Assembly: GCF_030127105.1 (NCBI RefSeq)
Contig: NZ_CP126161.1
Location: 3,038,001 to 3,102,000, forward strand
Length of the DNA: 64,000 bases
Reading direction: 5' to 3'
Origin: Haloarcula pelagica
Lineage (GTDB): Archaea; Halobacteriota; Halobacteria; Halobacteriales; Haloarculaceae
The notes under the pieces are model-generated. The model was not told the DNA's origin, did no database searches, and worked only from the letters and a program-made list of their open reading frames with translations. This document shows positions 2-50,262 of the stretch, in pieces (position 1 is the stretch's first letter; each line of letters begins with the position of its first letter). A program made the translations under genes and the position numbers.

Positions 2-2647
2 GACGAGGCGCTGGACCTGCTGGCCGAGAAGATGGCCCGGTTGGAGGACAACAAGCAGTTCCACATCTTCAACGCGATCAAGGCCGACGGGCTGTTTACC
101 CGTCACGGCGCCGGCCGACGGCTCGCGTCGATCTTCGGCGGCTGTGAGTGGACCGAGTACGACTGGTACGCCGACCTGCCGCCGGGCCACGTCATCACGA
201 CGGGCTACCAGACCAGCGACGCCGACGCCTCGGCGTGGCGGCAGGCCGACTACACGATCATCCAGGGCAAGAACCTCATCCACAACAAACTGGCGGACAA
301 CCACTTCCTGCAGGAGACCCGCGAGCGCGGCGGGGAGATGGTCGGCATCTACCCGGACTACTCCCCGACCGTCCAGAAGTGCGACCGCTGGCTTCCGGTT
401 CGGCCGGGCAGCGATCCCGCGGTCCCGCTGGGGATGGCCCACGTCATCATCGACGAAGGGCTGTACGACGCCGAGTTCATGCGCAAGTTCACGAGCCTCC
501 CGCTCCTGGTCCGGGAAGACGACGGGAAGTACCTCCGTGCCCACGAGGTGTTCTCCGACCACGAACCGCCGGCGGAGGCGGACGAACACGACTGGGGCGA
601 GTTCGTCGTCCTCGATCAGTCGGGATCGCCGGTCCCGATGGATCGGGAGTCGGTCGGCGAGGAGATGCCAGCGACGCCACGACTCGATGTCGACACCGAC
701 GTATCGTTGGCAGCGGGTGAGAGCGTCTCCGTCCGCAGCGACTTCGCCCGCCAGCGGGACAACGTGATGGCGAACTACGATCCCGAGACGGTCGCGGAGA
801 TCACGACGATCCCGGCCGACGCGCTGAGGAAGACCGCCCGGGAGTTCGCCGACGCCGAGCGTGCCCAGTGGTTCACCGGCGAGGGGACCAACCACTGGTT
901 CCACGCCAACGACTCGCTCCAGCGCTCGATCTTCTTCGTCCAGTCGATGCTCGGCAACATCGGCAGCCCGGGGAAGGGTTACTACAACTACTCGGGCCAG
1001 TACAAGATCGAACTGCTGGACGGCTACCCCCACTACGTCAACCCCGACGGCCACGCCGCCCACGGGATGTACCCCGGCTACGCCTTCGCTTTCTTCGGCG
1101 GCGAGCAACTGGACCCCCACGCGATCCGCGGGGACTTCGACGAGGACCTCGATCTCGTGCCACAGGGCGACGCCGACGAGCCCGTGATGCCGAAAGGCGC
1201 CGACTCGTACACGATGTCGAAGCCGACGGTCCTGTGGACGATGAACTGCAACCTCCTGAACCAGACCAAACACCAGGAGCACGTCATCGAGAACTTCGTC
1301 AAACACCCCGAGACTGGCAACGACCTGTTCGTCGTCTCGGACATGCACATGACCTACTCGGCCCGTCACGCCGACATCGTGCTTCCCGTCCCCTCCTGGC
1401 TCGAATGTGACTACCCCGACATCACGGTCGGCCCGGAGAACCCCTTCGTCCACATGGACCACGGCATCATGGACCCGATCTACGACACCAAACAGGACGG
1501 GGAGGCCATCGCCTTGCTGGCCGAGACACTCGACGAGAAGATTCCACCGGAGGACCGCAACGTCGACTCCTATCGCTCGTACTTCGATAAGTTCCTCGAC
1601 GACGACAAAGACCCCGTCGAGTACATCCGCGAGACCTTCGACAAGGGGATGACCACACGGAGTATCGATGTCGAGGATCTCCGGGACGGCCCGGAACGGT
1701 TGGACCTGAAGACGTATCCGCGCATCCCGTTCTACTCGCAGATCCACGAGGACCGCCCGTTCTACACCAAGACCGGCCGGATGGAGTTCCACAAGGAGGA
1801 AGACCGCTTCCTCGAACTCGGCCGGGACGACTTAGACCACATCGAGAGCGTCGAGGGAACACCCTACGGCGTGAACCAGCGGTGGGACGAGGCCAAAGAC
1901 GAGGAGAACCCGCTCTACCACGAGGAGGGCAACCAGTTCTACTACAACACTCCCCATCCGAAGTACCGGACCCACTCCTCGTGGGGGATGACCGACTGGA
2001 ACCTCATCTGGTCGGCCCGTGACTTCGGGAGCGTCAGCGCCGATCCGGAGGGAACCGATCGCCTGGTCGACGACTTCTCGTTCCCGCAGGGCGACGGCGA
2101 GACGGCCGACGCGCCGCCGCTCGGCGAACCGTTCGTCGAGATCCACCCGGAGGACGCGGCCGACATCGATGTCGAGAACGGCGACTACGTCCGCATCTCC
2201 GGGAAGCGGGGCGACCTCGTGGTCCGGGCGATGGTCAGCGAGCGCCAGCGGCCCCGCTCGGCCGGCGACATGGGGCAGTTGACCCTCTGGCACGGCTGGT
2301 GGCCCCAGCAGTTCCCGGACGACGAGGCCGACGACGACAGCATCAAGGGGTACAACACGATGACGAACATCTGGCTCGACCCGCTCCAGGAGACCGACGA
2401 ACTGGTCCACAAAGCGGTCTTCGGTGACCCGAACGTCGCCGAAGAGATCGACGAGGAGATCGTCTGGCACGGCGCCGAACTGGAACACGGCTACGAGGAG
2501 ACGGTGTGGGCGCCGACGGGGACCAACCGCGACGACCTCGTCGACGTGGAGAAGTACGCCGAGGCCGACTGGTGGCCCGGCGACGCCCGCCGGGACGACC
2601 TGGTCCAGGACTACATCGGTGGCAGTCTCCAGGGGGGTGACAGCTGA
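2..2647 (+). CDS. Type II DMSO-reductase-family molybdopterin oxidoreductase, catalytic (alpha) subunit, 5'-truncated
   Basis: The frame is open from the window edge, so 881 residues are visible and the N-terminus (signal peptide, FS0 cluster) lies outside. The segment around YDWYADLPPG matches the NarG region that carries the aspartate Mo ligand; the Asp codon is at 161-163. A C-terminal dinucleotide-binding domain follows (around SWGMTDWNLIW to the end). The protein should bind bis-MGD molybdenum and reduce or oxidise an oxyanion or sulfur compound with the beta and gamma subunits encoded next. It is clearly divergent from the NarG at 46287 in this window, so nitrate need not be its substrate; chlorate, selenate, DMSO or dimethyl sulfide are alternatives. 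The stop lies just after an SD-like GGGGGGTGA that serves the next gene. Family assignment is firm; substrate is unknown. Confidence 0.88.
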   Translation, partial: DEALDLLAEKMARLEDNKQFHIFNAIKADGLFTRHGAGRRLASIFGGCEWTEYDWYADLPPGHVITTGYQTSDADASAWRQADYTIIQGKNLIHNKLADNHFLQETRERGGEMVGIYPDYSPTVQKCDRWLPVRPGSDPAVPLGMAHVIIDEGLYDAEFMRKFTSLPLLVREDDGKYLRAHEVFSDHEPPAEADEHDWGEFVVLDQSGSPVPMDRESVGEEMPATPRLDVDTDVSLAAGESVSVRSDFARQRDNVMANYDPETVAEITTIPADALRKTAREFADAERAQWFTGEGTNHWFHANDSLQRSIFFVQSMLGNIGSPGKGYYNYSGQYKIELLDGYPHYVNPDGHAAHGMYPGYAFAFFGGEQLDPHAIRGDFDEDLDLVPQGDADEPVMPKGADSYTMSKPTVLWTMNCNLLNQTKHQEHVIENFVKHPETGNDLFVVSDMHMTYSARHADIVLPVPSWLECDYPDITVGPENPFVHMDHGIMDPIYDTKQDGEAIALLAETLDEKIPPEDRNVDSYRSYFDKFLDDDKDPVEYIRETFDKGMTTRSIDVEDLRDGPERLDLKTYPRIPFYSQIHEDRPFYTKTGRMEFHKEEDRFLELGRDDLDHIESVEGTPYGVNQRWDEAKDEENPLYHEEGNQFYYNTPHPKYRTHSSWGMTDWNLIWSARDFGSVSADPEGTDRLVDDFSFPQGDGETADAPPLGEPFVEIHPEDAADIDVENGDYVRISGKRGDLVVRAMVSERQRPRSAGDMGQLTLWHGWWPQQFPDDEADDDSIKGYNTMTNIWLDPLQETDELVHKAVFGDPNVAEEIDEEIVWHGAELEHGYEETVWAPTGTNRDDLVDVEKYAEADWWPGDARRDDLVQDYIGGSLQGGDS

Positions 2648-3828
2648 TGCCCGACGTGTACAACCCCCAACTGGGCCGCGAACAACCGTATCCCTACGAA
2701 CACCGGGCCGAGGACCGGGACTACCACTGGGGCATGGTCATCAACACGAACCGGTGTATCAACTGCAACACCTGCTCCTTTGCCTGTAAATCCACCTGGA
2801 CCTCCGGTGAGGGCGAGGAGTACATGTGGTGGATGAACGTCGAGACCGAGCCCTACGGCGGCTACCCGATGGGCTGGGACATGAAACTGCTCTCTGAACT
2901 GGAGGAGGGCCAGACCATCTTCGAGGCCGCCGACAGCGGCGAACAGGCGACGGGGTACATCGCCGCCAAACAGGAGTGGGAGTACCCCGCGCTGGGCGAC
3001 GACCAGGTCCACGGCGAGTACCCCACCGGCGAGACCGTCGAGTCGGACCTGGAGAACGACGAGTACCACGACATCTGGCAGTTCTACCTCCCGCGGCTCT
3101 GTAACCACTGCAAGAACCCGGCCTGTCTCGCGGGCTGTCCGCGCCAGGCCATCTACAAGCGCGAGGAGGACGGTATCGTCCTGCTGGACCAGGAGCGCTG
3201 TCGGGGCTACCGCCGGTGTGTGAAAGCCTGTCCGTACCACAAGCCGATGTACAACCCCGAGACGGGGATCACCGAGAAGCCGGTCGGCTGTTACCCCCGG
3301 ATCGAGGAGGGCAACGTCCCCCGGTGTGTCTCCTCGTGTATCGGCAAGACCAGACTGCACGGCAACATCAACCGTGGCCCCGACGCGGGCCACGCCGGCG
3401 GCAAGAAGTCGGCGGCCGACGGCCGCTCGCCGATCAACCACCTGGTCCACTCCGACGAGAAGGTGGCCCTGCCGCTGTACCCCCAGTTCGGGACCCAGCC
3501 GCAGGTGTTCTACATGCCCCCCTATCACGTCCCGCCGGAGTTCCTGACCCAGATGTTCACCCCCAACACCGAGCAAAAGCACAACGACTGGCCGGGGTCG
3601 ACCTACGAGGAGTCCGTCCGGATCGTTCAGGAACGGGCCAGAGACCCGAGTCACCACACGCTCGGGATCCTCCAGTTGTTCGGGGCGACGACACGGCTCA
3701 TCGAGACCTACACGGTCAAGGAGAACAAAGTGAAGGGGTGGGACCAGGACGGCGAGAAGGTCGTCGACGTGCCCATCTACGAGGACATCGAGGTCCGCGA
3801 GGGCGAACAGTGGACGAACCAACCATGA
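2647..3828 (+). CDS. Four-cluster ferredoxin-type beta subunit of the type II molybdoenzyme
   Basis: This 393-residue NarH/DdhB-like electron-transfer subunit relays electrons between the gamma haem and the alpha subunit. Cysteine groups are C37/C40/C43/C47, C152/C155/C160/C164, C185/C191/C195 (Tyr188 where a fourth Cys would be, typical of a [3Fe-4S] site), then C215, C227 and C231. The NarH motif EKCxxC reads EKPVGC here, so Pro212 replaces a cysteine that is retained in the NarH at 49198. One cluster may therefore lack a ligand or be remodelled. The ATG at 2647 follows GGGGGGTGA with six-base spacing. The subunit type is certain; cluster content is inferred. Confidence 0.9.
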   Translation: MPDVYNPQLGREQPYPYEHRAEDRDYHWGMVINTNRCINCNTCSFACKSTWTSGEGEEYMWWMNVETEPYGGYPMGWDMKLLSELEEGQTIFEAADSGEQATGYIAAKQEWEYPALGDDQVHGEYPTGETVESDLENDEYHDIWQFYLPRLCNHCKNPACLAGCPRQAIYKREEDGIVLLDQERCRGYRRCVKACPYHKPMYNPETGITEKPVGCYPRIEEGNVPRCVSSCIGKTRLHGNINRGPDAGHAGGKKSAADGRSPINHLVHSDEKVALPLYPQFGTQPQVFYMPPYHVPPEFLTQMFTPNTEQKHNDWPGSTYEESVRIVQERARDPSHHTLGILQLFGATTRLIETYTVKENKVKGWDQDGEKVVDVPIYEDIEVREGEQWTNQP

Positions 3829-3842
3829 CTGGAGGTGACACG

Positions 3843-4550
3843 ATGACAGAGACGCCAGCGTTCCACGCCGCCCGTGCGGGGCTGTACGCTGCCGTCGCGG
3901 GCGCGTTCGTCTATCCGGAAGCAGCGACAGTCGAGGAGCTGACCGACCGCGATGCGCTCGAAGGAATCGAACGAGCGGGTCGGCGGACTGGAGTCGAAGC
4001 GGAGGCAGCGGCGTTCACCGACGCACTCGCCGACTGCTCGCCGGTCGCCCTCCAGGCGGAGTACAACGACCTGTTCGGCGTCCCCGACGAGGACGGGACG
4101 TACGCCGTCGTTCCCTACGAAGGAAACTACACGGTCGGCTCCGAGATCGACGACGAGCAGCGCCGGATCGCGGCGGTCGTCGGCCTGTTAGAGACGGTCG
4201 GGCTCGAACCGAGCGACGAGTTCCGCGAACGCCAGGACCACGTCGCGACGGAACTGGAACTCATGCAGGTCGCCGCCGGGCAGCGCGCGGTCGTCCACGA
4301 GCGCGCCAGCGACCCCGAGGAAAACGAGGTGCTCGACGAGATCGTCGGCGTCGAGTCGGCGGTACTCTCGAACCACTTGATCGACTTCGTCCCGGCCTTC
4401 GCCCACGATGTCCGCGAGGCGACCGACTGTGACGTGTACCTGGCCGCTGCGGACCTCGCGCAGTCGCTCGTCGAGTCCGACGAGTCGCTGCACCCGCCGG
4501 CGCCGGCGGACCCGGACGACATCTCGGAGAGGGGGGTGGTCGGCCGATGA
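3843..4550 (+). CDS. TorD/NarJ/DmsD-like molybdoenzyme chaperone
   Basis: A 235-residue helical protein with the family look: an N-terminal RAGLYAAVAGAFVYP segment, then LQAEYNDLFG, then a C-terminal region with ELELMQVAA and LSNHLIDFVPAFA. Such chaperones bind the apo catalytic subunit, help insert the Mo cofactor and hold it back from Tat export until mature. The ATG at 3843 is chosen because a perfect GGAGGTGA lies at 3831-3838, four bases upstream; an in-frame ATG at 3825 overlaps the beta stop and would add six residues. It sits between beta and gamma here, whereas in the nar operon the chaperone follows gamma. Its client is presumably the alpha subunit at 2-2647. Confidence 0.8.
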   Translation: MTETPAFHAARAGLYAAVAGAFVYPEAATVEELTDRDALEGIERAGRRTGVEAEAAAFTDALADCSPVALQAEYNDLFGVPDEDGTYAVVPYEGNYTVGSEIDDEQRRIAAVVGLLETVGLEPSDEFRERQDHVATELELMQVAAGQRAVVHERASDPEENEVLDEIVGVESAVLSNHLIDFVPAFAHDVREATDCDVYLAAADLAQSLVESDESLHPPAPADPDDISERGVVGR

Positions 4551-5614
4551 GCGTCGGTGAGCTCCGCGACACTCTCGGTTCGGTGGACCTGCTCGACGGG
4601 GACGCCGCGGTCCGCGCGACGGCCGTCTCCCTGGCCGTCGTCCTCGGACTCCTCCTGGTCCAGGGCGCGGTCGCGGCGGCGGTCACCGGCCCGGGCCAGC
4701 CGACAGCACAGGTCCAGCGTGCGCCCCTGTCGCCGACGGCGACGACGTGGAGCGACGTGCCCAGCCAGACCGTCTCCCTCCAGAAACAGCAGATGGCGGT
4801 CCCCTACGGCGGCGGCTCCGTCGGCGAGATGGACGTACAGGTCGCCACGAACGACTCCCACGTCGCCTTCCGCCTCTCCTGGGCCGACCCGACCCGCGAC
4901 GCCGCCATCCAGTCGCCACGGAACTTCAGCGACGCCGTGGCGGTGATGGCCCGTACGGGGAGCCAGCCGCCGATCACGATGGGCGCGACCGGCAAACCGG
5001 TCAACATCTGGTACTGGCGGGCCAGCTGGCAGTTCCGCAACACGAGCGCTCCCTGGAGCAACGACATGTACGCCTACCCGCACCCGGACGCCGAGACCAA
5101 GCCCGGCCAGGCGGCCGGGAACCCCCTCTCGAAGGCGACCTACGAGCAGTACGCCCAGAACTACTACGCGAAGGGGTACGGCTCGCTGAGCGACGCCCCG
5201 ACCCAGCCAGTCAGGGCCCGCGGAGCCCGGACCGACGGCGAGTGGGCAGTGTCGTTCGTCCGCGAGCGGTCGACCGACGGGCAGTTCGACGCCGCCTTCG
5301 ACGGCTCCGAGACGGTGTATCTGGCCTTCGCCGTCTGGAACGGCAGCGCCGACGAAGTGAACGGGAAGAAGTCGATCACGCTGCGGTACTCGACGCTCGA
5401 CCTCTCGTCGGGGACGTTCTCGCCGCCGGCACAGTCCAGCGGTGGTGACGGCGGCAGCGGGTCGGGCGACGACGGGACCGCTGCTGGCGGGGCTGGCGGG
5501 AGCGCAGGCGGCGGCCCCGTCGGTTTCCTCGACGGCTTCGGCGGACTGATGGGCACCGCGCTCGCGGCCATCGCGGCGTCCTGGACGGTCGCGTACTGGA
5601 GGCTCACACGATGA
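4547..5614 (+). CDS. Haem-b gamma subunit (DdhC / ethylbenzene dehydrogenase gamma-like), membrane-anchored
   Basis: This 355-residue protein has an N-terminal hydrophobic segment (about residues 25-48), a beta-rich body, a Gly/Ser-rich linker (about 290-325) and a C-terminal transmembrane helix. It carries the two landmarks of EBDH-type gamma subunits: a Met in PPITMGATGKP (Met145) and a Lys in NGKKS (274-275), by analogy the axial ligands of haem b. It probably passes electrons between the membrane carrier pool or a halocyanin and the beta subunit. It overlaps the chaperone gene by four bases (ATGA). The full-length C-terminal anchor suggests a membrane-tethered complex, unlike soluble periplasmic DdhC. 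The haem ligation is inferred from family knowledge. Confidence 0.8.
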   Translation: MSVGELRDTLGSVDLLDGDAAVRATAVSLAVVLGLLLVQGAVAAAVTGPGQPTAQVQRAPLSPTATTWSDVPSQTVSLQKQQMAVPYGGGSVGEMDVQVATNDSHVAFRLSWADPTRDAAIQSPRNFSDAVAVMARTGSQPPITMGATGKPVNIWYWRASWQFRNTSAPWSNDMYAYPHPDAETKPGQAAGNPLSKATYEQYAQNYYAKGYGSLSDAPTQPVRARGARTDGEWAVSFVRERSTDGQFDAAFDGSETVYLAFAVWNGSADEVNGKKSITLRYSTLDLSSGTFSPPAQSSGGDGGSGSGDDGTAAGGAGGSAGGGPVGFLDGFGGLMGTALAAIAASWTVAYWRLTR

Positions 5615-6501
5615 CACTCGACGACTATCACAGCGCCCGTAACGGCGCACCGGCCACCGACGAACCGGCTCTCAGGGAGTGCCTCGACAGCTCCGAGCAG
5701 CGACGGGACGCGGCCCTCGCGCTGATCGATGTCGCCGACAGACAGGGACTCGACGACCGAACCGTCGACGCACTCGACGGTGTGGTCCGCGAGGCGACCG
5801 ATCCCGAGGCCCGACAGTACGCCGTCGAAGCCCTGGGGACCGCCGGTGTCGGCACCGAAAGCGTCCGGCGAGCGCTCGACGACGACCACGAGTGGGTGCG
5901 TGCGGAGGCCGTGGTCGCGCTCTCGCGGACGGACCCGAGTGACACCGACCGGCTCGAGAGCGCCATCGAGGACGACAGCGGCTGGGTCCGGCGCAACGCC
6001 ATCGTGGCCCTCGGGAAACTGGGGGCCGTCGATCAGCCGCTACTCGTCGACCGGATCAAGTCCGACGGCCATCCCGCCGTCCGGGAGTACGCGGCGCAGT
6101 TCCTCGGCGAAGTCACCGAGGACACCGAGGCAGTCGTCCGCATCCTCGCGGCGGTGCTGGCCCGGGAACCCAACGCCTACGTCCGGGCGAAAGCCGCCGA
6201 CAGCCTGGGCGAACTCGGGACCGACCGCGCCGAGGAGGCCCTGGAGTCCCAGGGGTTACACGACCGTAGCGAGGACGTGCGCCGGACCGCCAGGGTCGCA
6301 CTGGCGAGCGCCCGGGGGACCGACCCCGAGGAGATCGACCTGCCGGACAGCGGGGAGACCGACGGCTCGCCCCCGATGACCCGGCCGCCGGGTGGCGCCG
6401 ACGCGCCCAGCCCCACCGACCCGCGTGGCCCCGATCAGCCACAGCCAAGCGGTCCCGGGCCGGCGCCGAGTCGGGAGTACGACGGGGGTGACCACCGGTG
6501 A
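5611..6501 (+). CDS. HEAT-repeat (PBS-lyase-like) protein of the molybdoenzyme operon
   Basis: A 296-residue protein made of about six short helical repeats (residues ~25-235) with the recurring pattern V-R-x-x-A-V-x-A-L, for example WVRAEAVVALSR, WVRRNAIVALGK and YVRAKAADSLGE. A proline/glycine-rich acidic tail follows. HEAT proteins act as docking scaffolds; no catalytic motif is visible. It overlaps gamma by four bases, so it is translationally coupled to the enzyme. A second HEAT protein sits at the matching place in the nar operon (52576), which argues for a shared accessory role in assembly or localisation of these enzymes. The exact role is unknown. Confidence 0.8.
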   Translation: MTLDDYHSARNGAPATDEPALRECLDSSEQRRDAALALIDVADRQGLDDRTVDALDGVVREATDPEARQYAVEALGTAGVGTESVRRALDDDHEWVRAEAVVALSRTDPSDTDRLESAIEDDSGWVRRNAIVALGKLGAVDQPLLVDRIKSDGHPAVREYAAQFLGEVTEDTEAVVRILAAVLAREPNAYVRAKAADSLGELGTDRAEEALESQGLHDRSEDVRRTARVALASARGTDPEEIDLPDSGETDGSPPMTRPPGGADAPSPTDPRGPDQPQPSGPGPAPSREYDGGDHR

Positions 6502-7043
6502 GCGAGTCCCCCGCCGAGCAGTCCGTGGGGCTGTCGATCCCCGAGGAGTACGCCGGCGAGTTCGTCGCCGAAGTGTTCGAGGACGCCGAGCGGTCGACCG
6601 ACTGGCCGGGCGTCGTCGACGCCTTCGTCCCGCCCGCCCGACGCGAGGAGTGGGGAGAACTGGACGCGACGGCACAGGTCTGTCAGGTGTTAGACCGGGC
6701 GGGCGCCTACGATCAGTCGGCCGTCGACGCCCTGGAGCGGATCGACGCCGACGCCGAGCGACCGGCGGCCCGCGAGAAGTTCGACGAGGCGATCCGGTGC
6801 CGGCACAACGCAGACGGCTTCCGAAACGCCGTCGCCGACGCCTACGCCAGGGGACGAATCGACGACGACGGGCTGGTCGCGGCGGTCGAACGGACGGACT
6901 TTGGGACCGACACCATCGCTCGTCGCGAGGAGCTACTGGAACTGATCGCGGAGAAACACGAGTTCGAGTTCCGGCCCTACGGCGGGACCTTACTCGACGG
7001 CGAGCGGTTTCAGACCGACTCGTCGGACTCGGCGACCTGGTGA
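6498..7043 (+). CDS. Uncharacterised acidic protein at the end of the molybdoenzyme operon
   Basis: A 181-residue soluble acidic protein with no signal peptide, membrane segment or cysteine cluster; a single Cys lies in AQVCQVLD and one in IRCRHN. I do not recognise a family. The sequence looks helical throughout (EFVAEVFEDAERS, FRNAVADAYARG, EELLELIAEKHEFEF). It starts with GTG at 6498, overlapping the HEAT gene by four bases and preceded by GGGGGTGA, so it is the last gene of the operon. Its 3' end overlaps the convergent gene at 7010-7330 by 34 bases. It might be another assembly factor, inferred only from position. Confidence 0.7.
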   Translation: MSESPAEQSVGLSIPEEYAGEFVAEVFEDAERSTDWPGVVDAFVPPARREEWGELDATAQVCQVLDRAGAYDQSAVDALERIDADAERPAAREKFDEAIRCRHNADGFRNAVADAYARGRIDDDGLVAAVERTDFGTDTIARREELLELIAEKHEFEFRPYGGTLLDGERFQTDSSDSATW

Positions 7044-40650: not shown

Positions 40651-41478
40651 TTACCGCTCGTGGGCCCAGAACTCGTCCTCGACGGTGACTTCCTTCTTGA
40701 ACAGCGGGACTTCCTCCTTGAGACGGTTGATACCGTCCTCGACGGCCCGGAACGCTTCGCCGCGGTGGCCCGCCAGCACGACGACGAAGACGATGTCCTC
40801 ACCGGCCTCGACGACGCCGGTCTTGTGGTGGAGGGCGACGGCGTAGACGCCGTCACGCGATTCGAGGGACTGTCGCAGCTGTGCCATCCGGTCGGCGGCG
40901 ACCTCGTCGTAGCGCTCGAACTCCAGGAACTCCGTCGGCGGGTCGTCGGGGCCGTCTCGCGCTCGGACCCGGCCGGTGAAGGTCGCGATGGCACCGGCGC
41001 GGTCCTCGTCGGCCGAGGCCTTCACCCGCTGGACCAGCGTCTCCAGGGTGACGTACGGGTCCCGCCCGCGCATCGCGTCGACGACGGCGTCGAGGTCGGC
41101 CTCGCTGCCGCTGTCGGCCCGGTGAACGACCGGATCGGCCGCGTCTCGATCGCCCAGGACGACCTTCGGGATCGCGGCGTCGCTGTACCCCTCGACGAGC
41201 GCGTAGTCGTACTCCGGAGCGAGCGCGTCGAGTGTCGCCGGCAGCGACCGGTCCTCGCCGGTGGCGAACCACTCCCCGTCGTCGGTCAGCGCCACCGTCT
41301 CGCTCGCCCCGGCGGCTCGGTGGCGGGCGGTGTCTTTCCCCTCGGTGTCCACGTCGGGCGGATGGGTGCAGTGTTTGACAGTCGCCACTGATCCCCGTTC
41401 CGAGAGGTGCTCGGTCAACCGCTCGACGAGGGTGGTCTTCCCGGCGTCGGAGTGACCAACGATTCCCAGGACTTGCAT
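40651..41478 (-). CDS. MobB-MoaE fusion: Moco guanylyl transfer accessory GTPase and molybdopterin synthase large subunit
   Basis: A 275-residue two-domain protein. Residues ~1-115 are MobB-like, with P-loop GHSDAGKTTLVERL and VEGYSD. Residues ~140-275 are MoaE: TFTGRVRA, LEFERYDEVAADRM, HKTGVVEAGEDIVFVVVLAGHRGEAF and the lysine-rich INRLKEEVPLFKKEV, which contains the catalytic lysines. MoaE with MoaD inserts dithiolene sulfurs into cPMP; MobB aids Mo-MGD formation. The fusion places an early and a late Moco step in one polypeptide. It is first in a Moco group with moaC and moaB upstream. Confidence 0.9.
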   Translation of the reverse strand: MQVLGIVGHSDAGKTTLVERLTEHLSERGSVATVKHCTHPPDVDTEGKDTARHRAAGASETVALTDDGEWFATGEDRSLPATLDALAPEYDYALVEGYSDAAIPKVVLGDRDAADPVVHRADSGSEADLDAVVDAMRGRDPYVTLETLVQRVKASADEDRAGAIATFTGRVRARDGPDDPPTEFLEFERYDEVAADRMAQLRQSLESRDGVYAVALHHKTGVVEAGEDIVFVVVLAGHRGEAFRAVEDGINRLKEEVPLFKKEVTVEDEFWAHER

Positions 41479-41523
41479 GCGACCGTCTACCGGTCGGGCA
41501 CGGGTATGTGTTTCCGAACGCGG

Positions 41524-42000
41524 TCAGGGGCGTTCGACGGACTTCTCGACGACTTCGACCCCCTCGATTCCGGTTCCGGGGTACTGCCCGTCGGCGTCTT
41601 TCTCGCTCGCTTTCACCATGTCCCAGACGACGTTGAGGCCGGTCGTCACACCCTCCAGCGCCTCCATCTCGCAGCCGGTCTTCCCGACCGTCTCGACGGC
41701 GACGGTGAGTTCCACCCGGCCGTCCGCGACCTCGAACGCTGTTTCGACGTTCGTGATCGGGATCTGGTGGCACATCGGGATCGTCTCCCAGGTGTGTTTG
41801 ACCGCCTGGATCGCGCCGATCCGGGCCGTCGTCAACACGTCGCCTTTCTCCACGTCGTCGGCCTCGATCGCCGCGAGCGTGTCGTCGGTCAACCGGATCT
41901 CGCCCCGGGCGACGGCTCGGCGCTTGCTGTCTGCTTTCTCCCCGACATCGACCATCTGGGCGTCACCGTCCTCGTCGACGTGTGTGAACTCCTCACTCAT
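41524..42000 (-). CDS. moaC: Cyclic pyranopterin monophosphate synthase MoaC
   Basis: A 158-residue enzyme with MVDVGEKADSKRRAVARGEI, IPMCHQIPIT (the CH motif), GCEMEALEGV and VWDMVKASEK, all MoaC landmarks. It converts the MoaA product into cPMP, the first Moco intermediate. Start 42000 is preferred over one nine codons earlier. It lies 45 bases from both neighbouring Moco genes on the same strand. Confidence 0.94.
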   Translation of the reverse strand: MSEEFTHVDEDGDAQMVDVGEKADSKRRAVARGEIRLTDDTLAAIEADDVEKGDVLTTARIGAIQAVKHTWETIPMCHQIPITNVETAFEVADGRVELTVAVETVGKTGCEMEALEGVTTGLNVVWDMVKASEKDADGQYPGTGIEGVEVVEKSVERP

Positions 42001-42045
42001 GCCCGCTGGTAGCGCCACCGGCCCCAAAACCGTGCGGGTCTGGCC

Positions 42046-42588
42046 TCACCGTCGGACGAGGCCGAGGAGGTGACCGACTGCGGGAGCGATCAGTTCTTCG
42101 GTGCCCGTCCGGGCGGCGTTCTCGCTGCCGGGCAGACAGAAGACGAGTCGATCCTCGACCACGCCCGCGGTCGCCCGCGAGGCCATCGCCATCGGTCCGA
42201 CCTCCTCGTAGGACAGCCAGCGGAACAGCTCCCCGAACCCGGGGATCGGCCGGTCGAACAGGTCGCCGACTGCCTCGACGGTCACGTCGTCCGCCGTCAG
42301 GCCGGTGCCGCCGGTCGTGACGACAACGTCGGCGCCGCCCTCGAACAGTCCCGCGACAGCCCCGGCGATCGCGTCGGCGTCGTCGGCGACGAGCCGACGG
42401 TCTGTGACCGCGTGCCCTGCCGCTTCGCAGGCCGCCTCGACGGCGTCGCCGCCGGGGTCGTCCGCCAGTGTCCGGGACGAGGAGACGGTCAAGACGGCGA
42501 TGTCGACCGTCTCGCGGTCGTGTGCGTGGTGATCGTCGTGGCTATCGTGATCGTGGCCGTCTGTGCTGTCGCCGTGATCGTGACCCAT
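42046..42588 (-). CDS. moaB: Molybdopterin adenylyltransferase-type MoaB with a His-rich N-terminus
   Basis: A 180-residue MoaB/MogA protein: VDIAVLTVSSSRTL, GGADVVVTTGGTGLTADDVTVEAV, FRWLSYEEVGPMAMASRATAGVV, LVFCLPGSENAARTG. It adenylylates molybdopterin before metal insertion. The first 23 residues contain eight His and many Asp (MGHDHGDSTDGHDHDSHDDH), a likely metal-binding extension absent from the usual family N-terminus. It is the first Moco gene downstream of narO. Confidence 0.92.
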   Translation of the reverse strand: MGHDHGDSTDGHDHDSHDDHHAHDRETVDIAVLTVSSSRTLADDPGGDAVEAACEAAGHAVTDRRLVADDADAIAGAVAGLFEGGADVVVTTGGTGLTADDVTVEAVGDLFDRPIPGFGELFRWLSYEEVGPMAMASRATAGVVEDRLVFCLPGSENAARTGTEELIAPAVGHLLGLVRR

Positions 42589-42627
42589 ACCCCGGTGTGG
42601 GGACGAGACACGGATAACTGTCGGCGG

Positions 42628-43284
42628 TCACGGTTCGTCGAGGAGGTCGCCGAACACCTTCCGCTGGGCGGCCGCGAGGTGTTCGGTGAACGTCGCGGTC
42701 GTGATTCCCAGCTCGTCGGCGACCTCGCCGGCGTTGGCACCTCGCGGGTGTTCGAAGTACCCCAGTTCGTGGGCGCGTTCCAGCACCTCGCGCTGGCGCG
42801 CCGTGAGTTTCTCGCGGTCGAGGACCACCGGTCGACCCCGGTCTGCGGCGTCGTCGGTCTCGACCAGCCGCCGGAGATTCACGTGGTCGCTCGTCGACTG
42901 GAGATCCGCGATCACCTCCCTGAGCGTGGCCACGTCTTCGACGAGGAACGTCACCGTCAGCGACCGCGCCGTGGCGCTCAGTTCCTGAACGACACAGTCC
43001 GCCCGCTCGATCCGCTCGCAGACACACCCCTGGCCCGCCTGGCGACGGAGGCGGTAGACCCGCCCGTGCTCGTAGTCGAACACCGCTTCGACAGCCTCGT
43101 CGTCGGGGGCCGGCGGCGCCTCACCGTCGCCGACGAGCGTGAACTCCTCGACGACCTCCTCGTCGTCGCCGCCCAGCGCGCTCCTGGAGACCGAGGCGAC
43201 CCGCCAGTCCTCACCGGCGTGGGGCTGGACCTGACAGGCCTGTGGGTCGACGACTTCGACCTCCGCGAGTACCCGACTGGACAT
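42628..43284 (-). CDS. narO: NarO-type cysteine-containing HTH regulator
   Basis: A 218-residue regulator. The N-terminal sensor part has Cys17 (PQACQVQPHAG) and a cluster GQGCVCERIERADC, a four-cysteine set consistent with redox or Fe-S sensing. The C-terminus has the bacterio-opsin-activator type HTH (LTARQREVLERAHELGYFEHPR, GEVADELGITTATFTEHLAAAQRKV). This fits NarO, the haloarchaeal regulator of anaerobic nitrate respiration, and it is divergent from the nar operon. DmsR-like paralogues are an alternative. Its TATA-like element is gaactatttg on the minus strand (43311-43320). Confidence 0.85.
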   Translation of the reverse strand: MSSRVLAEVEVVDPQACQVQPHAGEDWRVASVSRSALGGDDEEVVEEFTLVGDGEAPPAPDDEAVEAVFDYEHGRVYRLRRQAGQGCVCERIERADCVVQELSATARSLTVTFLVEDVATLREVIADLQSTSDHVNLRRLVETDDAADRGRPVVLDREKLTARQREVLERAHELGYFEHPRGANAGEVADELGITTATFTEHLAAAQRKVFGDLLDEP

Positions 43285-43466
43285 GTGTCGAGATGTCGAG
43301 CTGTTTCCGGCAAATAGTTCAGCGCGAACATGTTCGGCACCGATTTTCACGTAAAAAGCACCCGAGATGTTTGGTCCGACGTTCACCGTCGTCGTCGCGT
43401 AAGGCTCGGACACGAGGGACCGGCTCGAACAGTCAGAAGACTATCATACCCGGCCTCGCCCAAGCT
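43285..43466. promoter_or_regulatory. narO-narA divergent promoter region
   Basis: A perfect palindrome CGAACATGTTCG lies at 43325-43336 (CGAA-N4-TTCG), a few bases upstream of the narO TATA region (43311-43320). The narA TATA-like ctatcata is at 43441-43448, about 22 bases before ATG 43467, so narA is likely leaderless. A CGAAC half-site is at 43426-43430, eleven bases upstream of that TATA. The palindrome matches the operator form I recall for NarO in haloarchaea. Confidence 0.6.
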
Positions 43467-44045
43467 ATGAGACGGAACACGATACTCATCGTCCTGCTGG
43501 TGACCGCGGTGTTGCTCCCGATGTGGTACGTGGCGTTACACGGCGAACCGCCCTCCGAGGAGATCGCGATCGACGAGAGCGTCACCGATCTCCGACCGCT
43601 GGAGGGGCCGATCGACACCCCGAACAAGCTCTCGCCGAGCCAGGTCGGCGTCGTCGTCTGGGTCGCCCTCTTCGGCCTCGTCGGCGTCCTGGCCGGCGCC
43701 CACCAGTTCATGAACCGGGCCGTTCGACCGCCGGACGAAGCGCCGGTCGCCGACGGCGGCCAGCTCACGCCCAGCCTGCCGTGGCTCGAATCGGACAACC
43801 GCTGGGTCGTCGAGTACCACGACGCCTCCGACGCCATCGAGGGACTGGTCGCGATGGGCGGGCTGACCGTCCTCTCGATCGTCTTCGCGGCGCTGTTTAC
43901 CGGCGAGTACCTGACGCTCGCGCGGACCCAGTACTTCGGGCTGTACGCCACCGGGATGTTCGTCTCGCTGGCGCTGTCGACGGTCGCGTACTACGCCTGG
44001 TTCATGCCACACGTCGAGGTCGCGGAATACAGGAGGCACGACTGA
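43467..44045 (+). CDS. narA: NarA: membrane protein of the respiratory nitrate reductase operon
   Basis: A 192-residue protein with three hydrophobic helices (about 5-22, 56-78, 128-150) plus a fourth near 160-182, and a hydrophilic region facing out between the first two. It is the first gene of the haloarchaeal nar operon; its function in electron transfer is not established. The stop overlaps the ATG of narB by one base. The gene name rests on position and on similarity of the operon layout. Confidence 0.7.
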   Translation: MRRNTILIVLLVTAVLLPMWYVALHGEPPSEEIAIDESVTDLRPLEGPIDTPNKLSPSQVGVVVWVALFGLVGVLAGAHQFMNRAVRPPDEAPVADGGQLTPSLPWLESDNRWVVEYHDASDAIEGLVAMGGLTVLSIVFAALFTGEYLTLARTQYFGLYATGMFVSLALSTVAYYAWFMPHVEVAEYRRHD

Positions 44046-44686
44046 TGGACTACCCGAAACCCGACGAGGACGACACGGACGACTGTGGATGCAGCGACAC
44101 CCCGGCGGCCCGCCAGAGCCTCTACAGCGACGCGCGGGCCGAACTCCGGCGGCGGGACTTCGCGAAGTTCCTCGCGACAGTCGGCGGTCTCACCGCCGTC
44201 GCCAGCCTGACGGCGCCCCTGGCCAGCACCACCCAGGTGTTCGAGCGCAGCTACGAGGGGCCGATCTACTCCGACGGCGTCGCGCTCGTCGACGACGCGG
44301 GCGAACCGATCGAGGAGGGCCGCCTCGCTGAGGGCGAGCACATGACGGTCTTCCCCGAGCCCCGGCCCGGCATCGAGGACGCGCCGACGCTGTTGGTGCG
44401 CTACGCCGAAGACGCCTACAGCAACGTCAAAGAGGGCTTTACCGTCAGCGGCTACGCGGCGTTCTCGAAGGTGTGTACCCACGCCGGCTGTATGGTCGGC
44501 AACCGCGACGGGGACCTCATGGTCTGCCCGTGTCACTACGGGAAGTTCGACCCACTCTCCGGCGGGAGCGTCCAGGGCGGCCCGCCGGGGCGGGCGCTCC
44601 CCCAACTCCCGATCACGCTGTCCAGCGACGGGGCGCTGATCGCGACCGGCGACTTCGAAGGGCCAGTCGGCCCGGGGGGTGAGTGA
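44045..44686 (+). CDS. narB: NarB: Rieske iron-sulfur protein with twin-arginine signal
   Basis: A 213-residue Rieske protein. A twin-arginine signal ([18 protein letters not shown], about 31-48) followed by a hydrophobic core predicts Tat export and an N-terminal membrane anchor. The cluster motif is CTHAGCMVG (about 141-149) and [10 protein letters not shown], with Cys and His ligands for the [2Fe-2S] centre. It should take electrons from quinol through narC and pass them to the nitrate reductase. Two extra cysteines (DCGCSD, residues 14 and 16) lie in the N-terminal part. Confidence 0.93.
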
Positions 44687-46122
44687 TGTCCCGCGCCGAC
44701 CGACTCTACGACTGGTTCGACACCAGGCTCGATGTCGAGCGGGGCCAGCAGTTCCTCGGGAAGGCGTTCCCCGCCGAGGACTCGTTCCTGCTCGGGGAGG
44801 TCGCGCTGTTCTGTTTCCTCCTGCTCGTCCTCTCGGGGATCTTCCTGGGCTTTTTCTTCGAGCCCTCGACCTCCGCGGTCGAGTACGACGGCAGCGTCGA
44901 GAAGTTCCAGGGCCAGGAGATGCCCGAGGCGTTCGTCTCCGTGTTGCACATTACCTACGACGTGCCCTTCGGCATGTTCATCCGGCGGCTCCACCACTGG
45001 GCGGCCCACCTCTTTGTCGCCTCGATCGGGTTGCACATGCTCAGGGTGTTTTTCACCGGGGCCTACCGCAACCCACGTGAGCCAAACTGGATCGTCGGCA
45101 CCGGACTGGCGGCGCTGTCGATGGGCGCGGCTTACACCGGCTACGCCCTCCCGTTCGACGAGTTCGCTGCCACCGCGACCAGCATCGGCTACAACCTCAC
45201 CATCTCGGTGCCGCTGCTGGGTGACTTCCTCGGACAGGTGGTCTTCGGTGGGGAGTTCCCCTCCAGCGCGACCATCCCGCGGCTGTACTTCCTGCACGTA
45301 CTGGTCATCCCCATGGCGATTGCAGGGGGCCTAGCGCTGCACATGGCGATCCTGATACGCCAGAAACACACCGAGGCCCCCCGCGAGGGCGACCTGACCG
45401 TCGGCGACGAGACGGTCGACCAGGACGACGACAGCGTCATCATCGGCCTGCCGGCCGTCCCCAACCAGGCGGCCGTCTCGGCGGTCGTGTTCTTCCTGAC
45501 GGCCGCGACCCTCTCGGCGCTCGCGGGGCTGCTCCCGGTCCACAACGTCGCCGAGTACGGCCCCAACGACCCCGCCAGCACGCCGGCACTCATCATGCCC
45601 GACTGGTTCCTGATGTGGGTGTACGGCTTCCTGAAACTGCTCCCCCAGATCAGTCTCTCCATCGGGCCGGCCCACATCAACGGCGAGTTCGTCGGCGGCG
45701 TCCTCATGCCGGGGCTGGTCTTCCTGGCGATCGCCGCCTGGCCGTTCATCGACCGGACGCCCGAGCCGACCCACTTCACGGCCGACCCGCTGGAGCGGCC
45801 CTGGCAGACCGGCGTCGGCGTCGCCGCCGTCGCGTTCGTCATGATCGCCTCGATCGCGGGGATGAACAACATCCTCGCCGACCAGGTGCTGGGGACGACC
45901 ACCGGCGTCGTCAACCCCGTCCTGACTGGGGCGTTGCTCGTGGTCCCGCCGGTGCTTGGCGGGCTCACCTATCTCCTGTTGCGCGACGGTGAGCAGTCGA
46001 CCCCGCCCGACGACGAGGGGGTCGCCGCAGACGGCGGGACGACCGGCAGTGAGAGCGCCGACGCGGGCGCAGTCGGCACCCCTGCCATCGACGACAGCGA
46101 CGGAGGTGGGAGCGATGACTGA
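44686..46122 (+). CDS. narC: NarC: cytochrome b of the nitrate reductase electron-transfer module
   Basis: A 478-residue fused cytochrome b (b6 plus subunit IV-like halves). It includes His ligands in [14 protein letters not shown] and [17 protein letters not shown], a Qo-site segment [11 protein letters not shown] (PEWY-like), and about nine TM helices. It oxidises quinol and reduces the Rieske protein NarB. The C-terminal ~40 residues are acidic. Start at 44686 follows GGGGGGTGAGTG; a GTG just upstream at 44683 is possible. Confidence 0.93.
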
Positions 46123-46294
46123 GATCGCCATCTCCCGCAGACAGTATCGCCTGCTAGACACGGCGAGCAAACTGGTCGGACTCGGCCTCGTGGCCGCCGG
46201 ACTGGAGGCCGGCGGCTCGACGCCGACCGGCCTGGCCCTCGCGCTCGTCGGTACCGCCTGTGCGACTGCGACGGTGTTTCTGAGCCATGAGTAG
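46115..46294 (+). CDS. Small membrane protein between narC and narG
   Basis: A 59-residue protein with two hydrophobic segments (about 17-35 and 38-57; [34 protein letters not shown]). It overlaps narC by eight bases and narG by eight bases, so it is embedded in the translationally coupled operon; SD-like GGAGGTGG precedes its ATG. An open reading frame at this position is known from other haloarchaeal nar operons, without assigned function. Confidence 0.75.
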
Positions 46295-49205
46295 ACAGAC
46301 TCCCGACGACGACCGCTGGACGGATAGTTCGCTGAGCCGCCGCGACTTCGTGCGCGGGCTCGGCGCGGCATCGCTGCTGGGCGCGACCGGCCTCTCGTTC
46401 GCCGACGACGGCATGGAGGGCCTGGAGGCAGTCGACGACCCGATCGGTAACTACCCCTACCGGGACTGGGAGGACCTCTACCGCGAGGAGTGGGACTGGG
46501 ACGACATCGCCCGCTCGACCCACAGCGTCAACTGCACCGGCTCCTGTTCCTGGAACGTCTTCGTCAAGGACGGCCAGGTCTGGCGCGAGGAGCAGGCCGG
46601 GGACTACCCCACGTTCGACGAGAGCCTCCCGGACCCGAACCCGCGAGGCTGCCAGAAAGGGGCCTGTTACACCGACTACGTCAACGCCGACCAGCGCGTG
46701 CTCCACCCCCTTCGCCGTACCGGCGAGCGCGGCGAGGGCCAGTGGGAACGGATCAGTTGGGACGAGGCGCTGACCGAGATCGCCGACCACGTCATCGACG
46801 AGGTCGTCGAGGGGAGATACGACGCTATCTCCGGGTTCACGCCGATCCCGGCGATGTCGCCGGTGAGCTTCGCCAGCGGCTCCCGGCTCATCAACCTCCT
46901 CGGGGGCGTCTCCCACTCGTTCTACGACTGGTACTCGGACCTGCCGCCGGGCCAGCCCATCACCTGGGGCACCCAGACGGACAACGCCGAGAGCGCCGAC
47001 TGGCACAACGCCGACTACATCGTCGCCTGGGGGTCGAACATCAACGTCACGCGCATCCCCGACGCGAAGTACTTCCTCGACGCGGGCTACGAGGGGGCCA
47101 AACGGGTCGGCATCTTCACCGACTACTCCCAGACGGCGATCCACACCGACGAGTGGCTCTCCCCGGAGGGCGGCAGTGACACCGCCCTGGCGCTGGGGAT
47201 GGCCCAGACCATCGTCGACGAAGGCCTGTACGACGAGGCCCACCTGAAAGAGCAGACCGACATGCCCCTGCTCGTCCGGGAGGACACCGGGAAGTTCCTC
47301 CGGGCCGGCGAGGTCGGTCTGGCGGGGGACGCCGACGACCCCGAGAAGGTGTTCGTGATGGTCGACGCCGACGGAAACCTGCGACGCGCGCCGGGCTCTC
47401 TTGGCGAACGCGACGGCCAACACGATCCCGAGGCGAGCATCGAACTGGACTTCGACCCGCAGTTGGGCGTCGAACGGACCGTCGGGACCGACGACGGCGA
47501 GGTGCCGGTGCGGTCGGTCTGGGAGAACCTCCGGGACGAACTCGCCCAGTACACCCCGGAGTTCGTCCACGAGGAGACCGGCGTCGGCGAGAACACCTAC
47601 CAGCGGGTCGCCCGTGAGTTCGCCGAGGCCGACGCCGCCAAGATCATCCACGGCAAGGGCGTCAACGACTGGTACCACAACGACCTGGGCAACCGTGCCA
47701 TCCAGTTGCTCGTCACCCTGACCGGGAACCTCGGCGATCCGGGCACCGGGCTGGACCACTACGTCGGCCAGGAGAAGATCTGGACGTTCCACGGCTGGAA
47801 GGTCCTCTCGTTCCCGACCGGGAGTGTGCGGGGGGTGCCGACGACGCTGTGGACGTACTTCCACGGTGGCATCCTCGACAACACGGATCCCGACACCGCC
47901 GAGAAGATCCGCGAGTCGATCGACAAGGGGTGGATGCCCCTCTACCCGACGGAACGCGAGGACGGCTTCCGGCCCGACCCCTCGACGATGTTCGTCTGGC
48001 GGGGCAACTACTTCAACCAGGCCAAGGGTAACGTCGCCGTCGAGGAGCAACTGTGGCCGAAACTCGACCTCGTGGTCGACATCAACTTCCGGATGGACTC
48101 GACGGCGATGTACTCCGACATCGTCCTCCCCGCGGCGAGCCACTACGAGAAGTACGACCTCTCCGAGACGGACATGCACACCTACGTCCACCCGTTCACG
48201 CCGGCGGTCGAACCGCTGGGGGAGGCAAAGACCGACTGGGAGATCTTCCGCCTGCTCGCCGAGAAGATCCAGGAACGCGCCCGGGAACGGGGCGTCGACC
48301 CCGTCGAGGACAGGAAGTTCGACCGCACGATCGACCTGACGACGATCTACGACGACTTTGTCCGCGACTGGGAGACCGGTGAGGCGGGCGCACTGGAGGA
48401 GGACCGCGCCGCCGCGGAGTTCATCCTCGAACACTCCGAGGAGTCCAACCCCAGCGATAGCGACGAGCAGATCACCTTCGCCGACACCGAGGAACAACCA
48501 CAGCGGCTCCTGAAAGCGGGTCCTCACTGGTCCTCGGACATCAAAGCGGACGAGGCCTACGTCCCCTGGCAGGACTACGTTCACGACAAGGAGCCCTGGC
48601 CGACCTTCACCGGCCGCCAGCAGTACTACGTCGACCACGACTGGTTCCTCGAACTCGGCGAGGAACTGCCCACGCACAAGCGCGGGCCACAGGACACCGG
48701 CGGGGACTACCCGCTGACCTACAACACGCCCCACGGCCGGTGGTCGATCCACTCGACCTGGCGCGACAGCGAGAAGATGCTCCGGCTCCAGCGTGGCGAA
48801 CCGGTCGTCTACCTCAACCCCGACGACGCCGCCGACCGCGGTATCGAGGACGGGGACACCGTCGAGGTGTTCAACGACATGGGTAGCGTCGAGGTCCAGG
48901 CGAAGATCTACCCGTCCGGGGAACCCGGGACCGCCCGCCAGTACTTCGCCTGGGAGAAGTTCCAGTACCCCGACCGGGACAACTTCAACACGCTCGTCCC
49001 GATGTACATGAAGCCGACCCAGCTCGTCCAGTACCCGGAGGACACCGGCGAGCATCTGTACTTCTTCCCGAACTACTGGGGGCCGACCGGCGTCAACAGC
49101 GACGTGAACGTGGACGTTCGACTGACCGACGGGCAGTCGGGCTCGGGAGACGAGCAGCGCGGGTCTGCCGGTGTGGGCCCCGCGGGAGGTGAGTCCGATG
49201 AGTAG
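46287..49205 (+). CDS. narG: Respiratory nitrate reductase alpha subunit NarG
   Basis: A 972-residue Mo-bisMGD enzyme. Tat signal SLSRRDFVRGLG (residues 16-26). FS0 motif His79/Cys83/Cys87 (STHSVNCTGSCSW) and Cys122 (RGCQKGA). FYDWYSDLPPG with Asp214 in the Mo-ligand position. Mid and C-terminal dinucleotide-binding domains extend to TGVNSDVNV. The whole pattern matches NarG closely. The Tat signal predicts catalysis outside the cytoplasmic membrane, so nitrate uptake is not needed. Overlaps its neighbours on both sides. Confidence 0.96.
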   Translation: MSRQTPDDDRWTDSSLSRRDFVRGLGAASLLGATGLSFADDGMEGLEAVDDPIGNYPYRDWEDLYREEWDWDDIARSTHSVNCTGSCSWNVFVKDGQVWREEQAGDYPTFDESLPDPNPRGCQKGACYTDYVNADQRVLHPLRRTGERGEGQWERISWDEALTEIADHVIDEVVEGRYDAISGFTPIPAMSPVSFASGSRLINLLGGVSHSFYDWYSDLPPGQPITWGTQTDNAESADWHNADYIVAWGSNINVTRIPDAKYFLDAGYEGAKRVGIFTDYSQTAIHTDEWLSPEGGSDTALALGMAQTIVDEGLYDEAHLKEQTDMPLLVREDTGKFLRAGEVGLAGDADDPEKVFVMVDADGNLRRAPGSLGERDGQHDPEASIELDFDPQLGVERTVGTDDGEVPVRSVWENLRDELAQYTPEFVHEETGVGENTYQRVAREFAEADAAKIIHGKGVNDWYHNDLGNRAIQLLVTLTGNLGDPGTGLDHYVGQEKIWTFHGWKVLSFPTGSVRGVPTTLWTYFHGGILDNTDPDTAEKIRESIDKGWMPLYPTEREDGFRPDPSTMFVWRGNYFNQAKGNVAVEEQLWPKLDLVVDINFRMDSTAMYSDIVLPAASHYEKYDLSETDMHTYVHPFTPAVEPLGEAKTDWEIFRLLAEKIQERARERGVDPVEDRKFDRTIDLTTIYDDFVRDWETGEAGALEEDRAAAEFILEHSEESNPSDSDEQITFADTEEQPQRLLKAGPHWSSDIKADEAYVPWQDYVHDKEPWPTFTGRQQYYVDHDWFLELGEELPTHKRGPQDTGGDYPLTYNTPHGRWSIHSTWRDSEKMLRLQRGEPVVYLNPDDAADRGIEDGDTVEVFNDMGSVEVQAKIYPSGEPGTARQYFAWEKFQYPDRDNFNTLVPMYMKPTQLVQYPEDTGEHLYFFPNYWGPTGVNSDVNVDVRLTDGQSGSGDEQRGSAGVGPAGGESDE

Positions 49206-50262
49206 CCAGAATCAGGACGGCGAGGACACCCACGTCAACGTCGCCGACGGCGTCGACCACCAGGTCGCGATGGTGATGGACCTGAACAAGTGCATCGGCT
49301 GTCAGACCTGCACCATCGCCTGCAAGTCCCTCTGGACGGAGGGCGGCGGCACCGACTACATGTACTGGAACAACGTCGAGACCAAGCCCGGCGAGGGCTA
49401 CCCGAAGGGCTGGGAGGACTCCGGTGGCGGCTGGCAGTCCAGCGAGCACAAGGACCGCGAGACCGGCGACATCCCGTCCCGCGAGGAGTACGGCCGCGCC
49501 TGGGAGTTCAACCACGAGGAGATCATGTACGAGGGCAGCGACGAGCCGCTTCGCCCCCGGGAAGGCGCCGAGTGGGGGCCCAACTGGGACGAGGACCAGG
49601 GCGCCGGCGAGTACCCCAACAGCTACTACTTCTACCTCCCGCGGATCTGCAACCACTGCACCCACCCCTCCTGTGTCGAGGCTTGCCCGCGCTCGGCAAT
49701 ATACAAACGCGAGGAGGACGGCATCGTCCTGGTCGATCAGGACCGCTGTCGGGGGTATCGGTACTGCGTCGAGGGGTGTCCGTACAAGAAGGTGTACTAC
49801 AACACCGTCTCGAAGAAGTCCGAGAAGTGCATCTTCTGTTACCCCCGCCTGGAGGGCGAGGGACCGGACGGCGAGACGTACGCGCCCGCCTGTGCCGAGG
49901 AGTGCCCCCCACAGCTCCGACTGGTCGGCTTCCTCGACGACGAGGACGGCCCCATCTACAAGCTCGTCGAAGAGTACGAGGTCGCACTGCCGCTGCATCC
50001 GGAGTTCCAGACCCAGCCCAACGTCTACTACATCCCGCCCTATGCCCCCGGCCAGCACACCGAGGACGGCGAGACGGTCGACGTTGACCGCATCCCGCGC
50101 CAGTACCTCCGTGAGCTGTTCGGTGACCGCGTCGACGATGCCTTGGACACCATCGAGCGCGAGCGACAGCGCGCCCGACAGGGGGCCGACAGCGAACTGA
50201 TGGAACTGCTCCAGGACAAGAACCCCGCCAAACAGTACCGACTGGAGGTCTTCGATGACTGA
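49198..50262 (+). CDS. narH: Nitrate reductase beta subunit NarH
   Basis: A 354-residue four-cluster subunit. Group 1: C32, C35, C38, C42 (KCIGCQTCTIACKS). Then CNHCTHPSCVEACP, CRGYRYCVEGCP (Tyr in place of Cys, [3Fe-4S] type), SEKCIFCYPR and CAEECPP. Unlike the beta subunit at 2647, it keeps the KCxxC pair. It conducts electrons from the gamma haem to FS0 of NarG. The ATG at 49198 follows GGGAGGTGAGTCCG and overlaps narG by eight bases. Confidence 0.95.
   Translation: MSSQNQDGEDTHVNVADGVDHQVAMVMDLNKCIGCQTCTIACKSLWTEGGGTDYMYWNNVETKPGEGYPKGWEDSGGGWQSSEHKDRETGDIPSREEYGRAWEFNHEEIMYEGSDEPLRPREGAEWGPNWDEDQGAGEYPNSYYFYLPRICNHCTHPSCVEACPRSAIYKREEDGIVLVDQDRCRGYRYCVEGCPYKKVYYNTVSKKSEKCIFCYPRLEGEGPDGETYAPACAEECPPQLRLVGFLDDEDGPIYKLVEEYEVALPLHPEFQTQPNVYYIPPYAPGQHTEDGETVDVDRIPRQYLRELFGDRVDDALDTIERERQRARQGADSELMELLQDKNPAKQYRLEVFDD

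Follow-up and report, generated by a model that had tools for sequence, protein, structure and literature searches.

The window, that is, the whole stretch of 64,000 nucleotides of Haloarcula pelagica DNA that was analysed, opens inside an operon for an alpha-beta-gamma molybdoenzyme and carries a second type II enzyme further downstream. The relevant features, in positions of the window, are the following.

1-2647, + strand: 3' part of the gene for alpha, the catalytic (Mo-bisMGD) subunit; best PDB match Kuenenia NXR-A (7b04), E 1.3e-121
2647-3828, + strand: beta subunit (Fe-S relay), 393 aa with 14 Cys; best PDB match Kuenenia NXR-B (7b04), E 1.2e-84
2755-2787, + strand: first ferredoxin motif of beta, C37xxC40xxC43xxxC47, with C37, C40 and C43 assigned to FS1 and C47 to FS2
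3277-3291, + strand: K-P-V-G-C, in which Pro212 (codon 3280-3282, CCG) occupies the position of the first FS2 Cys and Cys215 is retained
3325-3339, + strand: C227xxxC231, with C227 assigned to FS2 and C231 as the fourth FS1 ligand
3843-4550, + strand: delta, a TorD/NarJ-type assembly chaperone (PF02613 3.2e-18, TIGR03482 7.9e-16), outside the mature enzyme
4547-5614, + strand: gamma, an EB_dh-type haem b protein with hydrophobic stretches at both ends
5611-6501, + strand: HEAT-repeat protein, found in 21/21 named relatives
6498-7043, + strand: 181-aa protein, conserved in 20/21 loci; the locus without it stops at a contig edge
46287-50262: second type II enzyme, of the haloarchaeal pNar type
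49171-50262, + strand: beta subunit of this second, pNar-like enzyme, EKCIFCYPR, with both Cys

The operon and the cluster ligands of its beta subunit

The alpha gene starts about 490 bases before the window; the full gene (L054:9510-12647) encodes 1045 aa with a twin-arginine (Tat) signal, LSRRDF, at the N-terminus. Alpha, beta and gamma all have Kuenenia NXR (7b04) as their best PDB match. The enzyme shows the marks of the type II (Asp-ligated) DMSO reductase family, namely the Mo-ligand Asp and an alpha-beta-(chaperone)-gamma operon with a haem b gamma. The Asp lies in YDWYADLPPG, present in 23/23 alphas of the Pro-bearing group (termed clade A below) and aligning with the corresponding region of NXR-A and PcrA, and the gamma haem ligands Met145 and Lys275 align with Met155 and Lys305 of NXR-C and are kept in 22 gammas. 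The NCBIfam DMSO_red_II models are the best or near-best families, all of them below cut-off (TIGR03478, 240.9 against 480.7 bits; TIGR03479, 335.2 against 984.75 bits for the 881-aa part that lies in the window; TIGR03477, 142.3 against 169.85 bits; TIGR03482, 58.6 against 152.3 bits), and the operon therefore appears to represent a lineage apart within type II, outside these models.

The order alpha-beta-chaperone-gamma-HEAT-181-aa ORF recurs in 20-21 of the 21 named loci, and no Pfam or NCBIfam match was obtained for the 181-aa protein. Of the 20 loci whose flank is long enough, 16 carry an Mrp/NUBPL-type Fe-S carrier NTPase directly downstream of the clade A operon. This protein is fused to DUF2249 (e.g. 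L057:12456-13700, L061:12482-13756 and L059:12660-14003), whereas in the window a homologue (53007-54671) is found close to the pNar-like second operon. The latter has a pNar-type arrangement, with a MobB-MoaE fusion, MoaC, a Rieske protein, cytochrome b, alpha, beta, an EB_dh gamma, the Fe-S carrier and a MobA-like protein encoded within 40654-55294. Also, a genome of the same order contains a pNarH-like frame interrupted by a TGA (G224:C1:3333589-3334422).

A preliminary description of this DNA held that the motif EKCxxCYPR of NarH-type subunits appears in this beta subunit as EKPVGCYPR, with Pro212 at a ligand position. Positions 3274-3300 (GAGAAGCCGGTCGGCTGTTACCCCCGG), which translate to EKPVGCYPR, and the codon at 3280-3282 bear this out, as does the paralogue its statement that both Cys are kept there: EKCIFCYPR lies in a GTG-started frame (49171-50262, with an ATG at 49198), its first Cys being encoded at 49828. 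The assignment of the column to FS2, based in that description on NarH numbering, is supported by both the NarH alignment and ferredoxin motif pairing. Residues 138-247 of beta align with E. coli NarH 170-279 (1q16_B) in phmmer without gaps, so that Pro212 pairs with residue 244 (Cys244), Cys215 with 247, Cys227 with 259 and Cys231 with 263, and beta C37/C40/C43/C47 fall on NarH C16/C19/C22/C26; the FS2 ligands of NarH we take to be C26, C244, C247 and C259. In double ferredoxin motifs the last Cys of one motif and the first three of the other bind one cluster, and because of this pairing rule FS1 is assigned C37, C40, C43 and C231, and FS2 is assigned C47, position 212, C215 and C227. The Cys inventory of beta comprises three complete cluster sets and one set with Pro212; FS4 has its expected three Cys, and the 14 Cys therefore equal the 15 cluster ligands minus one. 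FS2 retains three Cys (C47, C215, C227) and has a non-ligating fourth residue (Pro212), which is the composition of a [3Fe-4S] site at the level of sequence only.

Conservation of the proline among haloarchaeal genomes

The class-wide sample comprised 391 genomes, of which 36 carry a beta subunit at least 82% identical to that of the window (range 82-100%). Together with 21 named loci and one plasmid these give 58 loci; distinct proteins (37) were also counted, because some named loci possibly belong to the same species as sampled genomes. The named hosts span eight genera (Haloarcula, Halomicroarcula, Halosimplex, Halorussus, Halobaculum, Halostella, Natrinema and Natrialba). All 58 loci (37 distinct proteins) have Pro at the FS2 position, encoded by CCG in 39 and by CCC in 19. 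A sequencing or assembly error at 3280-3282, for which the preliminary description had allowed, is ruled out by these independent genomes: Pro recurs in all 36 of the sampled genomes that have this beta subunit and in another 22 loci, under two codons, and a change from TGC or TGT to CCG or CCC takes at least two base changes, leaving this explanation a negligible probability. A compensating Cys, the other outcome that could have overturned the claim, was sought across the whole Pro-bearing subfamily (58 loci), and none was found nearby or elsewhere in the proteins, each of the 37 holding exactly 14 Cys. The flanking FS1 and FS2 motifs are intact, and all remaining cluster ligands invariant, in 58/58 loci. 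These results confirm that the replacement of an FS2 ligand Cys by Pro is a genuine sequence feature.

The distribution of Pro needs no more than a single ancestral event, and would in that respect be consistent with relaxed drift at a site that is now unimportant, with no functional effect. Drift, however, would leave the column variable, whereas Pro is fixed across several families and in genes diverged to 82% identity, which makes this account very improbable. The same conservation bears on the possibility that FS2 is absent or degenerate and that beta has ceased to pass electrons down the whole relay. A cluster that loses a ligand can become unstable, and one ligand is gone at Pro212. Nevertheless, the three FS2 Cys are as invariant as the other ligands, dN/dS values against the window beta gene are low (0.12-0.23, 15 pairs computed) and beta is the most conserved protein of the operon (about 85% mean identity). 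Also, without FS2 the distance from FS1 to FS3 would probably exceed the usual tunnelling gap. A missing FS2 is thus considered improbable.

A pattern scan for the Pro motif in 393 genomes of the phylum recovered 8 clade A genomes and three other matches. Two of these (G455 and G508), the most similar in appearance, were rejected as further Pro-type beta subunits, both genomes being without any beta homologue, and the third (G639) appears to be a coincidental hit in AT-rich sequence. On the bacterial side, the scan for the Pro column covered plasmids and PDB chains.

Related clades and the all-cysteine FS0

The homologue alignment that the preliminary description had proposed sets Pro throughout clade A against Cys at the same column in all relatives compared. 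These include Kuenenia NxrB (anammox), PcrB, E. coli NarH, the window paralogue and the next haloarchaeal group, clade B (loci L034-L052), in which Cys occurs in 19/19 loci, typically within SQKCVGCYPK. When 54 beta proteins were placed in a maximum-likelihood tree, clade A and clade B were each split off by a branch with support 100/99, Kuenenia NxrB fell among them, with an exact placement that is unsure because of long branches, and PcrB and the paralogue lay outside. The simplest history suggested by this distribution would be one Cys-to-Pro substitution at the base of clade A. Three further residues near the FS1/FS2 motifs (N41, F45 and T235) are fixed in clade A and absent in the others. 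Beyond what the preliminary description had noted, the Pro defines a clade, the closest solved relative is NXR and not NarH, and FS0 is also changed.

Clade B shares with clade A the gene order alpha-beta, in many loci a chaperone, and a beta subunit that is about 45-51% identical, but differs in the retained Cys and in an NXR-like FS0 motif, CxPNDTHxC. The clade B alpha open frames span 1187-1244 aa, their FS0 motif fits the 3Cys/1Asp pattern of Kuenenia NXR-A, and the beta subunits have all 15 Cys. By these sequence traits the clade B enzymes are candidate archaeal nitrite oxidoreductases or nitrate reductases. A literature search for nitrite oxidoreductase activity in haloarchaea, judged partly by title, found no case.

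In the alpha subunit of the window operon FS0 reads C66-HPN-C70-TQS-C74 ... C119, i.e. four Cys, and CHPNCTQSC together with NPRGCMKG occurs in 23/23 clade A alphas. FS0 has been described as 3Cys/1Asp or 3Cys/1His in the compared NXR and NAR lineages, the other clusters being all-Cys and conserved (PMC8387239), and a paper on EbDH regards the FS0 His as conserved, apparently without exception, throughout subfamily II (PMC8840923); the all-Cys FS0 of clade A departs from both descriptions. Cys66 stands where the nitrate reductase NarGHI has the FS0 His, and a His-to-Cys change at FS0 has been reported to abolish activity of E. coli NarGHI (PMC8301774). In one locus (L067, Natrinema pallidum DSM 3751) alpha is open over 698 codons only, versus about 1050-1100 in the others, which may reflect a frameshift or a fault of the assembly.

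The ligands used by FS0 are also pertinent to a further alternative, in which FS2 stays a [4Fe-4S] cluster with its fourth iron on a non-Cys ligand, be it water/hydroxide, Glu210, Lys211, a backbone atom or an alpha residue. A [4Fe-4S] cluster held by three Cys and water or a carboxylate is chemically possible, and His or Asp serves at FS0 in related enzymes (PMC8387239), so that the family accommodates non-Cys ligands. E210 and K211 lie beside Pro212 and are invariant in the A1 alignment, yet the same pair is found in the Cys-bearing NxrB, E. coli NarH and the paralogue, and therefore provides no clade-specific replacement ligand. Nor are any of the residues fixed in clade A only (N41, F45, T235) established cluster ligands. 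Retention of a [4Fe-4S] FS2 is, on this evidence, an unlikely outcome, though the strongest of the alternatives.

Proposed electron relay and comparison with known systems

The reading favoured here, to which we assign a probability of about 0.68, is that the operon encodes a functional extracytoplasmic NXR-like type II alpha-beta-gamma molybdoenzyme in which two relay stations have been re-tuned and FS2 is a [3Fe-4S] cluster. FS2 would most likely assemble on C47, C215 and C227 with Pro at the fourth ligand position, and FS0 would have exchanged its customary His or Asp ligand for Cys, giving a set of four. A [3Fe-4S] FS2 is ranked first of the three options for this cluster because Pro is a known natural [3Fe-4S] signature in [NiFe] hydrogenases, and also because the 14 remaining ligands show no variation under purifying selection. 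In uptake [NiFe] hydrogenases, Pro at a ligand position gives a [3Fe-4S] medial cluster, and the reverse change from Pro to Cys reportedly turns it into [4Fe-4S] and changes the catalytic bias (PMC3701524; PMC4070099). [3Fe-4S] couples lie about +250 mV above those of [4Fe-4S] clusters, and in the Huc hydrogenase three [3Fe-4S] clusters arising through such ligand losses tune the relay and the overpotential (PMC10017518). What counts against a [3Fe-4S] FS2 is that the Pro signature is drawn, by analogy, from a protein that is not related to beta.

FS0-FS1-FS2-FS3-FS4 would form the electron path that links Mo with the high-potential haem b in gamma. Every subfamily II enzyme characterised so far has its FS2 at -336 to about -420 mV, the other known relay stations of type II enzymes fall between about -200 and +330 mV, and the low-potential FS2 has been interpreted as a barrier that keeps electron flow under control (PMC8840923). 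With FS2 as a [3Fe-4S] cluster, the potential of this step, near -400 mV, would be some 250 mV or more higher, so that the barrier would be lowered or gone. For the broader proposition, that clade A is a widespread haloarchaeal NXR-like group without the low-potential FS2 cubane, having two [3Fe-4S] clusters (FS2 and FS4), an all-Cys FS0 and a flatter Mo-to-haem wire, the odds seem about even. As a default guess from the nearest relative, the substrate may be an oxyanion couple such as nitrite/nitrate.

The purpose of the very low-potential FS2 step is an open question, and a clade in which the cubane has apparently been removed at FS2 and FS0 is changed offers a natural comparison for the purpose of the FS2 barrier; if the proposed chemistry is true, clade A is a natural test. 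The Pro also marks an uncharacterised haloarchaeal molybdoenzyme beside a second clade that resembles nitrite oxidoreductase.

Among known systems, the medial cluster of the [NiFe] hydrogenase small subunit has Pro where a cluster Cys would stand and, as a result, a [3Fe-4S] cluster in mid-wire (PMC3701524); it resembles FS2 by analogy only. E. coli NarGHI has in common with the window enzyme the beta fold, the other 14 of the 15 Cys and the Asp-ligated Mo, but differs in Cys244 at FS2, in a His-ligated FS0 (Cys66 here) and in the di-haem membrane subunit NarI, of which the window operon has none, its gamma being of EB_dh type. PcrAB and haloarchaeal pNar share membership of the type II family and a beta subunit with the Fer4_11 domain, but keep both Cys and fall outside the group of clade A, clade B and NxrB in the tree. 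Kuenenia stuttgartiensis NXR-ABC (7b04) shares the Asp Mo ligand, an EB_dh gamma with Met/Lys haem ligands, a Tat-type alpha start and a beta subunit about 50% identical over the aligned part. However, NXR has a 3Cys/1Asp FS0 and all-Cys FS1-FS4 (PMC8387239), whereas the window enzyme has neither the 3Cys/1Asp nor the 3Cys/1His arrangement at FS0, which is built of four Cys (CHPNCTQSC, 23/23 alphas), and lacks one Cys at FS2 (Pro in 58/58 loci).
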